This document shows positions 12,791 to 17,536 of a stretch of DNA of 64,000 nt, piece by piece; positions within the stretch are counted from its first letter, which is position 1; the number at the start of each line of letters is the position of its first letter. The translations under genes and the position numbers were made by a program. The notes below the pieces were generated by a model. It made no database searches, was not told where the DNA came from, and saw only the letters and a program-made list of their open reading frames with translations. This DNA comes from Haloterrigena turkmenica DSM 5511 (lineage in GTDB: Archaea; Halobacteriota; Halobacteria; Halobacteriales; Natrialbaceae), in assembly GCF_000025325.1 (NCBI RefSeq), contig NC_013743.1, positions 248,001 through 312,000 of the forward strand, read 5' to 3'.

Positions 12791-14396
12791 CGGCGACGAA
12801 CGTCGATTCCCTCACGTTCCAGCGTCGGACGACGATGACGACGCCGTCGTCGTCCCCGACGCTGAGGGCGGCGCGTCCCGCTCCCGGGAGAACACCGACC
12901 ACGCTCGAGAGGGCGCTATTGCGACCGACGGCGGCGCGAACGCGGAGGGCGACAGCTGCTCGCCCGACACCTGTACCTGCGGCGAGAAGACCGCCGAATC
13001 GGCCGCGTCCGCGGGCTCGGCCGACGACAAGCGCGTCGCCACCGACGGTGCGGGCGCCGCCAACGTCGACGAGATGGGCGAACTCGGCGAGCTCGAGTTC
13101 ACCGAGCCGGCCGAGAACGTCAGCCAGGACGTCTACGACGACGCGCCCGACGTCCGCGTCGGTATTCCGGACGGCGTCGACCTCGAGACGCCGGAGTACT
13201 CGATCCGGTCGCAGATGAACGACATCGAGACGCCCGACGAGAAGACCTGGTTCATGGAACTGGACGAGGCCGTCATCGACGAGGGCCGCTGTATCCAGTG
13301 TGGGACCTGTGTCGCCGCCTGTCCGTCCGACTCGATCGGCGTCGGCGACGACGACCTGCCGGAACTGGTCAAGATGTGTACCGGCTGTTCGCTCTGTTGG
13401 GACTTCTGTCCCCGCGGCGGGATGCGCTACGAGCGCCAGTGGAAGATCACCGGCGGCGAGGACAACGTCAAGGGCGCCGGCGATCCGATCACGGAGTTCT
13501 CCGCGAAGGTCGACGACGACTGGACCGACAACGCCCAGGACGGCGGCGTCGTCACCGGCGTCCTCTCGACGCTGCTCGAGGAGGGCGAGATCGACGGCGC
13601 CCTCGTCGCGACCGAGAGCGAAGAGGAAGAGTGGAAGGCCGAGAGCTTCCTCGCGACGACCACCGAGGAGCTCATCGAGAACGCAGGCACCGTCTACAAC
13701 CAGACGCTCGCGCTCGGCAACCTCGACCTGAAACAGTGGGAGCACAAGCTCCCCGACAAGGACTGGGACGACCTCTCGCTGGCCATCGTCGGCACGCCGT
13801 GTGAGATCGAGGGCATCCGCGCCCTGCAAGACTTCGAGTGGGACTACCAGGCCCAGAACGAGGGCATCCGCGCGGTCGACTACACGATCGCGCTGATGTG
13901 TACGAAGAACTTCAACTACCACAGCCTCATGGGCGAGCAGCTCGAGGAAAAACGTGGCATCTCCCCGTCGGAAATCGGCAAGATGGACGTCCTCAACGGG
14001 AAGATGATGGTCTACGACCACGACGGCGAGATGATCGTCGAGGAGGACATCGAGAACTTCCACGACGCCGCGCTCAAGGGCTGTGACGAGTGTGCCGACT
14101 TCACCGGCTTCTGTTCGGACATCACCGTCGGCTCCGTCGGCTCGAGCGACGAGTATTCGAGCGTCATCATCCGCACCGAGCAGGGGATGAACGCTTGGGA
14201 GCTGACCGAGCCGAAACTCGACTACCACGACCTCGAGGATCGCTCGGCAGTCGGCAAGCTCCAGGGCTGGGACAAGAAGAAGGCCTTCGAGAGCCTCGAG
14301 CGTCCCTTCGACCCCGACGCGCCGCGCTTTATCGATTACACCGACCACGCCGAGAACTACGGCACTGCCCTGAACCCGCACGATCAGGGTCACTAG
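12780..14396 (+). CDS. FrhB/F420-dehydrogenase beta-subunit family protein with two [4Fe-4S] clusters
   Basis: This 538-residue protein starts at ATG 12780, with a GAGGTG Shine-Dalgarno-like stretch 7 nt upstream; a TTG at 12762 is also in frame. An acidic, disordered N-terminal region of about 100 residues contains CSPDTCTCG. It is followed by ferredoxin motifs CIQCGTCVAACP and CTGCSLCWDFCP, then an FrhB-type flavin/F420-binding region (LAIVGTPCEIEGIRALQDFE, TIALMCTKNFNYHSL, CDECADFTGFCSDITVGSVG). The family oxidises reduced F420 or passes electrons between F420 and FeS clusters. It overlaps the reductase gene by 11 nt, implying a stoichiometric complex. Confidence 0.9.
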   Translation: MGTNGDERRFPHVPASDDDDDAVVVPDAEGGASRSRENTDHAREGAIATDGGANAEGDSCSPDTCTCGEKTAESAASAGSADDKRVATDGAGAANVDEMGELGELEFTEPAENVSQDVYDDAPDVRVGIPDGVDLETPEYSIRSQMNDIETPDEKTWFMELDEAVIDEGRCIQCGTCVAACPSDSIGVGDDDLPELVKMCTGCSLCWDFCPRGGMRYERQWKITGGEDNVKGAGDPITEFSAKVDDDWTDNAQDGGVVTGVLSTLLEEGEIDGALVATESEEEEWKAESFLATTTEELIENAGTVYNQTLALGNLDLKQWEHKLPDKDWDDLSLAIVGTPCEIEGIRALQDFEWDYQAQNEGIRAVDYTIALMCTKNFNYHSLMGEQLEEKRGISPSEIGKMDVLNGKMMVYDHDGEMIVEEDIENFHDAALKGCDECADFTGFCSDITVGSVGSSDEYSSVIIRTEQGMNAWELTEPKLDYHDLEDRSAVGKLQGWDKKKAFESLERPFDPDAPRFIDYTDHAENYGTALNPHDQGH

Positions 14397-14516
14397 GTCG
14401 GTCGTTCCGCTTTCGATTGTCGTCGCTCGAGAGCACGTTTTTGTCAGCGGTTCTCATTGTCGAGTAGTTCCGAAATCACAGTGGCCACGCCGCTCGTGAT
14501 CGAGTGCCGTCGTTTC

Positions 14517-14557
14517 TTTAAGTGCCTCTGGTCACAAGGTAGAGCTATGACGGGAAG
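14517..14557 (+). repeat. Promoter-like/hairpin repeat, copy 1 (diverged)
   Basis: TTTAAGTGCCTCTGGTCACA is followed by AGGTAGAGCTATGACGGGA, matching copies 2-4 at 16553-16845 over about 38 nt. The downstream hairpin half present in copies 3 and 4 is degraded here. It lies in the 299-nt gap between the FrhB-family and PAP2 genes. Confidence 0.75.
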
Positions 14558-14695
14558 TCGCCCTCGGCCGGATTCTCGAGGGTGATCGCGTTTTCCTCGG
14601 AGTAACATCGCCGTTGCTCGGCCACAAGAGTGTGGCAGACTACGGACCGACGCTCAGCCGACACCGATTAGTGACCTGTCGGCGTAGCGGGACGC

Positions 14696-15409
14696 ATGTC
14701 CAGGGGAATCGGTGTACTGCCGGCGGTTCAGGACGCGCTCCCCGACTGGGCAGCGCTGCTCGTCGCGCTGCTGACCCAGCTGGGGGACGTCTGGTTTCTG
14801 GTCCTCCTCGTCGGACTCGTCTACTGGTTTCGGCCGGACGACCGCGAGGAGGCCGCCGTCCTCGTCGGACTGATGCTGGCCGGCTTCTCGCTGGTGACTG
14901 CCCTGAAATACGCGTTCGCCCTGCCTCGACCTGGCCGACCGCTCGCGGAACTCGAGGCGCTGGGGCCGCTGGCCCGGTCGCTGTACGAGGCGACGGGAAC
15001 CGCCGACGGCTACGGCTTCCCGAGCGGGCATGCCGTCCTGACGACAGTTGTCTACGGCGGCCTCGCCTGGCGGCTCTCGATCGGCACGGCCCGCCAGCGG
15101 GCCGCCGCGGCGGCGACGGTCGTCTCGCTCGTTTGCGCCTCGAGGGTCGCGCTGGGGGTCCACTATTTCGTCGATGTCGTCGCCGGGGTCGCCATCGGGC
15201 TGGCATTCCTGGTGGTTGTGAACCGGCTGACGGCCCGCTACCCGACCGATCAGCAGACGGTCGCGTTCGCGATCGCCGTCGCGGTCGGCGTCGTCGCGCT
15301 CGTGACGAGCGGCGCCGCGGTCGACGCCGTGCTGGTCTTCGTCGCCACGCTCGCCGTATTCGGCGGGTTGCAGTTCGCGCGCGACGCTCGCGACAGGTCG
15401 TCCGCTTGA
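14696..15409 (+). CDS. PAP2-family membrane phosphatase
   Basis: This 237-residue integral membrane phosphatase has the complete three-part PAP2 signature: K-x6-R-P at residues 71-79 (KYAFALPRP), PSGH at 109-112 (GFPSGH), and S-R-x5-H-x3-D at 149-160 (SRVALGVHYFVD). About six membrane helices are visible. The family dephosphorylates phosphatidic acid, prenyl diphosphates or similar lipids at the outer membrane face. There is no operon partner, and the start ATG 14696 follows a gap holding the first repeat copy. A prenyl-diphosphate role is plausible in an archaeon but unproven. Confidence 0.93.
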   Translation: MSRGIGVLPAVQDALPDWAALLVALLTQLGDVWFLVLLVGLVYWFRPDDREEAAVLVGLMLAGFSLVTALKYAFALPRPGRPLAELEALGPLARSLYEATGTADGYGFPSGHAVLTTVVYGGLAWRLSIGTARQRAAAAATVVSLVCASRVALGVHYFVDVVAGVAIGLAFLVVVNRLTARYPTDQQTVAFAIAVAVGVVALVTSGAAVDAVLVFVATLAVFGGLQFARDARDRSSA

Positions 15410-15434
15410 GGGAGACCGACGGCGCTGATTTTCG

Positions 15435-16394
15435 TCAAAGTACGACGCCGGACTGCAGTATCGCGATCAGAACGGTGAGCACCGGGATCGAAAGCAGCGT
15501 CGTCAGAAACACGCACGTCGAGACGTACTCCGAGACGAGCACCCCCTCGGACCGGGCGCCGCCGGCGAACTCGATGACGAGGATCAACGGTGTCACCGCG
15601 GCCGGCATCGCGGTCTCGAGGACGAACACGCGCGCGACGGTCTGGTTCTCGAAGCCGATCAGGAGCGCGATCCCGAGCCCGATCACCGGCGCGACGACCA
15701 TCTTGAGGGCCGTCGCGGACCACGCGCGGGAGACCGCCGAGGCGGTGTCGGTGCGCGCGAGCTGGATCCCGAGGATGAGCAGCATGAGCGGAATCGAGGC
15801 GTCGCCGACGAGTTGCAGCGTCTCCATCGCCGCCGTGTCCGCGGGCGGAACCAGATCCAGCGCCCGGGCGACCAGCGCGGCGACGACGGCGTAGGCCAGC
15901 GGGATGTAGAACACTCGGCGAACCCCCTCGAGGCCGGCGGAGCCGCTGCTCCGGGAGGCGATGTAGACGCCGAGGGTGTACATCAGCACTGACTGGACTG
16001 AGAGGTAGAGGACGGCCGTCTCCCGCCCGATGTCGCCGAACGCGAAGTCGGAGACGGGAATGCCGAGGTTTCCCGAGTTAGTGAAGATCGCGACGAGGAT
16101 CAGCGCGCTCAGCGCCGGCTCGCGCTCGCCGGTGGCGCGCCCGGTCAGTTCGGCGAGCCCCCACATTGCCGCGGTGAAGAGGACGACTCCGACCGTCACT
16201 CGCGCGAGCGTCGCCGCGGCGAGTTCCGTGACGGCGAGGCTATGAAATACCAACGCGGGCGCTAGCACGTAGACGACGGCCATGTTCAACGGCTCCGGAT
16301 CGATCTGTTTGACGGTCGCCAGGACGTAGCCGACCCCCGCGATCGCGACGATCGGCCCGATCGCCGAGGCGAAGATGCCGATCAGGTCGGCCAT
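15435..16394 (-). CDS. AEC-family (auxin efflux carrier-like) transporter
   Basis: This 319-residue protein has about ten hydrophobic helices arranged as two five-helix halves. Family hallmarks are visible: FTNSGNLGIPVSDFAFG (the N-x-G-x-x-G/P crossover motif) and METAMPAAVTPLILVIEF-like VLETAMPAAVTPL near the C-terminus. AEC carriers in prokaryotes move organic acids or amino acids by secondary transport. It is convergent with the PAP2 gene (25 nt between stops) and reads away from the tandem repeats at 16553-16845. The substrate is unknown. Confidence 0.92.
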   Translation of the reverse strand: MADLIGIFASAIGPIVAIAGVGYVLATVKQIDPEPLNMAVVYVLAPALVFHSLAVTELAAATLARVTVGVVLFTAAMWGLAELTGRATGEREPALSALILVAIFTNSGNLGIPVSDFAFGDIGRETAVLYLSVQSVLMYTLGVYIASRSSGSAGLEGVRRVFYIPLAYAVVAALVARALDLVPPADTAAMETLQLVGDASIPLMLLILGIQLARTDTASAVSRAWSATALKMVVAPVIGLGIALLIGFENQTVARVFVLETAMPAAVTPLILVIEFAGGARSEGVLVSEYVSTCVFLTTLLSIPVLTVLIAILQSGVVL

Positions 16395-16552
16395 CGGTCA
16401 GCGCTCACCCTCCTCGAGAGGCGGCCGGCTCGAGGGACTCCTCATCCTTGCAGTCGTTTCCTGCATTACGGCTGTGACACTCTCAGTGCTCGGTATGGGC
16501 GTTACGGTCGGTACACGAGATACGCTTGCCGGCGTCGTGACTCCGTTCGTCC

Positions 16553-16620
16553 GTTAAGTGCTTCTGGTCACAAGGTAGAGCTATGACGGGAGGACGCCGT
16601 TCTCTGGAGCACAATCTCGA
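16553..16620 (+). repeat. Promoter-like/hairpin repeat, copy 2
   Basis: GTTAAGTGCTTCTGGTCACA, then AGGTAGAGCTATGACGGGAG and CGCCGTTCTCTGGAGCACAA. It is nearly identical to copy 1 for the first 38 nt and to copy 3 in the TTCTCTGG-GCACAATCTCG tail. TTAAGT resembles a TATA box with the A of ATGACGGG about 30 nt downstream. Confidence 0.8.
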
Positions 16621-16673
16621 GTAGTCGCTACTGTCTCTCGGTCGATGATTCGACGCGGTGGACACAGACGGTA

Positions 16674-16740
16674 TTTAAGTGGCTCTCGTCACAAGGTGAA
16701 GATACGACGGAGAAGCGTCGTTCTCTGGCGCACAATCTCG
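16674..16740 (+). repeat. Promoter-like/hairpin repeat, copy 3
   Basis: TTTAAGTGGCTCTCGTCACA, then AGGTGAAGATACGACGGAGA and a perfect 6-bp hairpin ACGACG-GAGAAG-CGTCGT (16704-16721). It begins about 120 nt after copy 2. Confidence 0.8.
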
Positions 16741-16790
16741 TAGCCACGGCTGAATCGCTCGGGGATCCCGTGTAGTGAACTCGGATTTCC

Positions 16791-16845
16791 TTTAAGTAGT
16801 TCTGGTCATAAGGTAGAGATACGACGGGAGAGCGTCGTTCTCGAG
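16791..16845 (+). repeat. Promoter-like/hairpin repeat, copy 4
   Basis: TTTAAGTAGTTCTGGTCATA, then AGGTAGAGATACGACGGGAG with a perfect hairpin ACGACG-GGAGAG-CGTCGT (16821-16838). It begins 117 nt after copy 3 and about 130 nt before the acetyltransferase gene. Compensated stem bases between copies suggest an RNA or DNA hairpin. Confidence 0.8.
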
Positions 16846-16924
16846 GAACTCGATCGACCAGCCACGGGTCTCGGCGCCGCCGGTTTCAAGGAACTTATCA
16901 CTCGAGTCGCAAAGAGACGACCGT

Positions 16925-17536
16925 ATGACAGCCGACGCGCGGATTCGAGTCGCGACACCGGACGACGCCGCTGCAGTCCGCGATATCTACGCCCCCTTCT
17001 GCGAGTCGACGGCGGTCACGTTCGAGGAGACGCCACCGACCGAGGCCGAGGTGGCCAATCGAATCGCGTCGACCCTGGAGACGTACCCGTGGCTCGTCTG
17101 TGAAATAGACGGCGCGGTCGCCGGCTACGCCTACGCCAGCCGGCTGCGCGAACGCCGGGCCTACCAGTGGACGGTCGAACTCTCCGTCTACGTCGCCGAC
17201 GACGCCCGCCAGTCGGGTGTCGGCCGCGCGCTCTACGAGTCGCTGTTCGCGGTCCTCGAGCGCCAGGGCGTCCGCGACGGCTACGCCGTGACGACGGTCC
17301 CCAACCCCGAGACCGAGCGGTTCCACGAGCGGCTTGGCTTCGAGCGCTGCGTCGACTTCCCGGCGATCGGTCACAGCGAGGGCGAGTGGCGAGACGTCGC
17401 CTGGTGGCGCCGGTCGATCGGCGAGAAGACGGCCGATCCGGAGCCGATCACGCCGCTGCCCACGCTCCGGGACCGGCTCGACGAGGCCGACTGGAACGCG
17501 CTGGTTCGGACCGGAGTGAATCGCCTCGAGTCCTGA
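16925..17536 (+). CDS. GNAT N-acetyltransferase, phosphinothricin acetyltransferase-like
   Basis: This 203-residue GNAT protein has the PAT/YwnH-type N-terminus IRVATPDDAAAVRDIYAPFC and TFEETPPTEAEVANRI. The acetyl-CoA pyrophosphate-binding motif region is RQSGVGRALYESLFAVLERQ (Q-x-x-G-x-G/A), followed by NPETERFHERLGFERC and WRDVAWW. PAT-like enzymes acetylate amino groups of small molecules such as methionine sulfone or sulfoximine analogues. The C-terminal ~30 residues extend beyond the core. It is upstream of thiE by 89 nt with no evident functional link. Confidence 0.9.
   Translation: MTADARIRVATPDDAAAVRDIYAPFCESTAVTFEETPPTEAEVANRIASTLETYPWLVCEIDGAVAGYAYASRLRERRAYQWTVELSVYVADDARQSGVGRALYESLFAVLERQGVRDGYAVTTVPNPETERFHERLGFERCVDFPAIGHSEGEWRDVAWWRRSIGEKTADPEPITPLPTLRDRLDEADWNALVRTGVNRLES

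Follow-up and report, generated by a model that had tools for sequence, protein, structure and literature searches.

A haloarchaeal promoter-like element that co-occurs with RNA polymerase subunit epsilon

Why should four copies of one short sequence, each opening with what looks like a TATA box, surround a transporter gene in the haloarchaeon Haloterrigena turkmenica DSM 5511, and what might act on them? The copies lie in a stretch of 64,000 nucleotides of this genome (henceforth the window), where an initial annotation had described them as three tandem copies and one outlier, each combining a promoter with a hairpin. All four are present at the positions originally given, and all are on the forward strand (Table 1). 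Successive copies are spaced 2036, 121 and 117 nt from start to start; hence, of the tandem period of 117-120 nt proposed earlier, the value of 117 nt stands while 121 nt falls outside the range. The letters of the motif likewise had to be corrected, namely to GTTAAGTG in copy 2, where GTTAAG is found, to TTTAAGTA in copy 4, and to ACGACGGAGA instead of ACGACGGGAG in copy 3. The AEC transporter gene, around which the copies had been described, is a neighbor of the element rather than its partner, the pairing not being kept across genomes. A gap of 149 nt separates copy 1 from the PAP2 gene and one of 104 nt separates copy 4 from the GNAT gene, whose product is closest to the ArsN1/PPT acetyltransferases but remains under their cut-offs. 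Since the PAP2 and GNAT genes each have their own TATA-like sequence about 30 nt 5' of the ATG (by eye), the four copies of the window would be either extra distal promoters or small-RNA genes. The Rfam 15 covariance models gave no match up to an E-value of 1 when run against positions 14000-17500 of the window.

Table 1. Features at the locus, in window coordinates
Feature	Position	Strand	Remarks
Element copy 1	14517..14554	+	TATA box 14517-14523, box 14526-14544, predicted start A 14547
Possible hairpin after copy 1 (TCGCCCTCG / CGAGGGTGA)	14560..14588	+	by eye; fold z -0.97
PAP2-family phosphatase gene	14696..15409	+	downstream of copy 1
AEC/Mem_trans transporter gene	15435..16394	-	between copies 1 and 2, opposite strand
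Element copy 2 (GTTAAGTG variant)	16553..16590	+	predicted start A 16583
Element copy 3	16674..16711	+	predicted start A 16704
Element copy 4	16791..16828	+	predicted start A 16821
GNAT acetyltransferase gene	16925..17536	+	downstream of copies 2-4

The conserved unit spans about 40 nt and comprises the TATA box TTTAAGT, a pair of variable bases, the box TTCTGGTCACAAGGTRRAG, which is nearly fixed and situated between the TATA box and the predicted start (for short, the GGTCACAAGG box), and the predicted start itself, TA-YGANGGG. Its information content is high from TTTAAGT through TTCTGGTCACAAGGTRRAG to TAYGANGGG and drops toward background on either side. The earlier proposal that a TATA box precedes a likely start by about 30 nt is borne out as a prediction: TTTAAGT is nearly invariant and the A located 30 nt from its first base is invariant in 151 of 151 copies, so that the element presents the TATA-like box at a fixed distance from a start-like TA that is expected of a TATA-type promoter. 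Among orthologous copies within the genus, selected by a strict ortholog filter, identity is 0.98 in the TATA box, 0.94 in the box, 0.95 in the start region and 0.91 at +14 to +24, compared to 0.82 upstream and values of 0.72 to 0.86 over most of the remaining sequence. These figures confirm the unusual conservation between TATA box and start that had been remarked upon at the outset. Because identity in these four parts exceeds that of the surrounding stretches, the conserved part is promoter-like DNA together with the first bases of a presumed transcript.

The element resembles the haloarchaeal core promoter (PMC4983044) in being intergenic and directional and in the TATA box that precedes a likely TA start by about 28-30 nt; it differs in having between the two a further box of about 18 bp, which is almost invariant. 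The promoter motifs described in haloarchaea are the BRE, the TATA box and the -10 WW, without a spacer box, and the published motif set consists of TTWT, CGAAA and WW (PMC4983044). The open literature searched, to which most subscription papers do not belong, holds no description of the element. The sequence ACAAGGTAG seems to resemble the 3' region of 16S rRNA, which we take to be due to chance.

According to the initial annotation, a lack of transcripts starting at the four A positions together with a lack of copies in related genomes would have pointed to a local duplication of no function; the copies are in fact widespread. In the H. turkmenica genome (5.44 Mb, 7 contigs) the element also occurs outside the window, as five copies at C1:505,071-506,895 around the gene for an RlaP nucleotidyltransferase, in pairs on contigs C3 and C4, and as isolated copies; 16 places in this genome have E <= 0.001. 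A pattern of 28 nt with up to three mismatches matched 33 of 61 relatives (reversed-pattern controls: 0), and a scan of named genomes returned exact matches in Natrialbaceae, among others in Natrinema, Haloterrigena, Natronococcus, Natronorubrum, Halopiger, Halobiforma, Natrialba and Halovivax. Using a weight matrix over the loci read, we recovered 281 distinct copies and none in 732,394 reversed bases. Both results put the repeat well outside what chance would give. All but one of these copies are intergenic (280/281, as judged by a home-made gene caller). Two contigs of the H. turkmenica genome have in common a stretch of about 320 bp (L010:2475-2792 and L011:2325-2642), which holds two elements 234 nt apart, that is, twice the usual period, with conserved sequence between them. 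Further, PadR-like regulator genes (MYDLTxFQRDLLY...) adjoin several dispersed elements (L172, L133, L137 and L275), some of them on plasmid-like contigs. The plasmid records that were matched have no annotated feature at the sites of the element.

In Natrialbaceae the main array is situated between the divergently transcribed mptA gene, the RlaP gene and a third gene; the next downstream gene is the third gene for 97 copies and RlaP for 92, in all cases on the same strand. The product of the third gene has no match in Pfam or NCBIfam, and its homologs on annotated public replicons are named DNA-directed RNA polymerase subunit epsilon. In each of the other haloarchaeal families examined, the element lies directly upstream of the epsilon gene, and the remaining neighbors differ. 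Forty epsilon genes from several families were drawn from the search list as a sample, and 38 of them have one to four same-strand elements upstream. Genomes G395 and G341, and several genomes of genus g69 in family f4, have an epsilon gene without a recognizable element upstream. The gene behind the element bears the annotation of the haloarchaeal RNA polymerase subunit epsilon (rpoeps, OE_1279R; PMC8305020), and Hbt. salinarum is among the organisms with an upstream element. In this species (G072, so assigned because a bacteriorhodopsin is 100% identical over residues 3-262) the nearer of two elements begins 115 nt 5' of the epsilon ATG and the other lies 814 nt further upstream; by eye, the nearer element is followed by a separate TATA-like TTTATT, some 27 nt ahead of the ATG. 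Epsilon genes can also have an ordinary proximal TATA box, likewise by eye. A link of the element to RlaP and RNA repair was considered and rejected: many genomes have the element without RlaP and others have RlaP without the element, which indicates that epsilon, and not RlaP, is the partner.

Several other genes were encountered in these neighborhoods. An RNA-repair-type RlaP gene (PF10127) at L009:2841-3808 (-) lies between mptA and epsilon with elements on both sides and has equivalents in most Natrialbaceae, and a short ORF at L009:2460-2560 (-), between two elements near epsilon, resembles a small zinc-finger protein (CDVCG...HPEC). Near epsilon in Halobacterium there is a DsbA/FrnE-like oxidoreductase gene, also with elements upstream (L257, L259, L263), and DsbA/FrnE-related genes adjoin epsilon in some Natrialbaceae (L129, L131, L146). 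The gene at L275:1738-2652 (Halobacterium genome G106, contig C4) looks by eye like a distant paralog of epsilon, with a divergent element about 230 nt upstream. At loci other than those of epsilon, RlaP and GNAT, the strand of the next gene is evenly divided (29 versus 26), as expected of stand-alone units, and many copies away from the epsilon gene look like stand-alone transcription units. The operator and the small RNA family between which the initial annotation had hesitated are accordingly not exclusive of each other, as the conserved part appears to be promoter DNA and many copies resemble transcription units in their own right.

Epsilon, discovered with the RNA polymerase of Halobacterium in 1983, is still described as enigmatic in its relevance: it is an extra subunit in Hbt. 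salinarum and a subset of haloarchaea, and the polymerase that contains it transcribes native templates efficiently, whereas the epsilon-free polymerase does not (PMC8305020). No promoter element or promoter selectivity for epsilon is described in the literature searched. Across 391 Halobacteria genomes, in which a strong epsilon was defined by E < 1e-50, we found near-perfect co-occurrence: 150 have both element and epsilon, 230 have neither, 10 have epsilon only, and one, whose assembly is 87% complete, has the element only. In four of the epsilon-only genomes (G014, G343, G011 and G016), a divergent element, typically TTTAAGTNNTTCTCGCGAYAACGG, occurs upstream of epsilon. Fisher's p for the co-occurrence is 7e-95, a value that is too optimistic because the genomes are related, and part of the co-occurrence is simple adjacency of the element to the epsilon gene. 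In genus g12 three members are without both element and epsilon, and family f5 has a single genome with a strong epsilon, G154, which alone in that family also has elements, eight on six contigs. This joint absence in g12 and lone joint presence in f5 show that the element and epsilon move together, G154 being a lateral case of the two. Both features by which an epsilon-dependent promoter would be recognized, namely presence only in genomes with epsilon and position upstream of the epsilon gene, are therefore observed. This tie to an RNA polymerase subunit is a new result, which could not be seen from the window. Weak homologs of epsilon (E 1e-11 to 1e-26) are found in 17 element-free genomes of families f5, f4 and f6; these may represent a paralogous family.

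Haloarchaea possess multiple TFBs that serve as promoter-selective factors, and TFB contacts the DNA beside the TATA box. We modeled epsilon with AF2 from 29 sequences; confidence is concentrated in residues 80-220, and of the versions of the model only the best reaches a fair confidence. On a second look, the structure matches of this model were nearly all to Brf2, TFIIB, archaeal TFB and cyclins, covering one cyclin repeat (Z 9-10.6, about 97 residues, rmsd about 2.8), and Foldseek gave weak matches with a best E of 0.75. Sequence homology between epsilon and TFB was sought and none was detected: Pfam, including PF00382, yielded no match, and hhalign against haloarchaeal TFB profiles yielded nothing (probability 0.2). 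As a lead from the model, then, epsilon may have the fold of a single TFIIB/cyclin-like repeat. It would be like TFB/TFIIB in this predicted repeat and in acting beside the TATA box, and unlike them in having one repeat rather than two, no visible zinc ribbon and no homology at the sequence level. Given that TFB contacts the adjoining DNA, one cyclin repeat sitting immediately 3' of the TATA box would, if the fold is true, be a natural reader of the box.

The initial annotation had further given the element a 6-bp hairpin. The stem ACGACG(N6)CGTCGT is indeed present in copies 3 and 4, but it cannot be upheld as a trait of the family, as the Natrialbaceae copies display neither excess stability nor covariation. 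In this family, the mean stability z of the first 50 nt is +0.27, versus +0.03 and -0.16 in the flanks, with no extra stability over shuffles or flanks, and the 5' half of the stem pairs with its own downstream sequence no better than with that of another copy when partners are swapped. Excess structure of the transcribed part was also not found in most other families, and the hairpin of copies 3 and 4 is incidental here. At the orthologous loci L051 and L054, the arms of the possible hairpin after copy 1 read TCGTCCTCG / CGAGGACGA, by eye a compensated change. In G154, six copies have a 9-bp covarying stem at +10 to +31, with 98% of cells paired versus 88% in shuffles, two-sided changes at five of the nine pairs and a mean stability z of -2.0. 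Because the stem covaries there, it suggests that the sequence of the element is transcribed and folded in the G154 lineage, the structure not being general.

The G154 stem, along with the conservation of +14 to +24, is what might be expected if the elements were small RNA genes acting on the epsilon-polymerase or the epsilon mRNA in a 6S-like feedback, such that the partnership with epsilon resided in the RNA and not in the promoter. However, excess structure is missing from the transcribed part in Natrialbaceae and most other families, and that part varies between families whereas the promoter box stays fixed, and we hold this reading to be quite unlikely. Archaeal repressors commonly act between the TATA box and the start, where the element is conserved, and the PadR-like genes mentioned above lie near a few copies; a separate regulator could hence be at work, with the epsilon gene merely one member of its regulon. 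Yet only one of the 231 epsilon-free genomes has the element, so that such a regulator would need to be gained and lost together with epsilon, the single gain in f5 fits this joint movement too, and the epsilon locus has no constant regulator-gene neighbor. We accordingly regard a separate regulator as unlikely.

It is very improbable that the copies are leaderless micro-protein genes starting with AUG or ACG: while ATG stands at the predicted start in 79 of the 281 copies, ACG does so in 188 and ATA in 12, and the spacing past the start shifts by single bases, which leaves no common frame. The initial view that no protein is consistently encoded is thereby sustained. The tandem arrangement of copies at intervals of about 117-121 nt, the location of some copies on plasmids and the longer segment common to two contigs of the H. 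turkmenica genome would all suit a mobile or locally duplicated repeat without function. Nevertheless, the box is preserved while its flanks diverge, contradicting a lack of function, its place upstream of epsilon is kept across families, and a virus collection contained no match, which makes such a repeat hardly credible. A viral or phage origin was rejected in its own right, there being no match among viral contigs, nor any phage match covering most of the query.

The reading that we prefer, with a probability of about 0.55, is that the element is a promoter that depends on epsilon, is autoregulated and gives rise to short untranslated RNAs as well. Speaking for it are the position upstream of the epsilon gene, the near-perfect co-occurrence and the conservation from TATA box to start; speaking against it are the epsilon genes lacking a recognizable element upstream, the ordinary proximal TATA box that epsilon genes can have and the weakness of the fold match. 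The element would act jointly with epsilon, the product of rpoeps: we infer that epsilon reads the box, either directly or as a component of the polymerase, and stimulates initiation at this site. The element before the epsilon gene would then confer autoregulation, and the other copies, the four in the window included, would be epsilon-dependent promoters making short untranslated RNAs, some of which perhaps read on into the next gene. Bacterial alternative sigma factors with autoregulated promoters are comparable in their working only, with the gene of the factor behind its own type of promoter and with dispersed targets; the proteins and the promoter architectures are unrelated. More tentatively, and at somewhat less than even odds, epsilon might be an archaeal subunit for promoter specificity, with a promoter box and a regulon of stand-alone short RNAs that are its own, similar in role to an alternative sigma factor and built on half of a TFIIB-like core.

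As the box is almost restricted to epsilon-encoding genomes, it offers a concrete and cheap handle on the role of epsilon. Its likely targets can be named in sequenced strains, including Hbt. salinarum, and the element family flags a large set of possible short transcripts in Natrialbaceae. If the epsilon-dependent promoter reading is true, promoter selectivity in an archaeal polymerase can reside in an accessory subunit.
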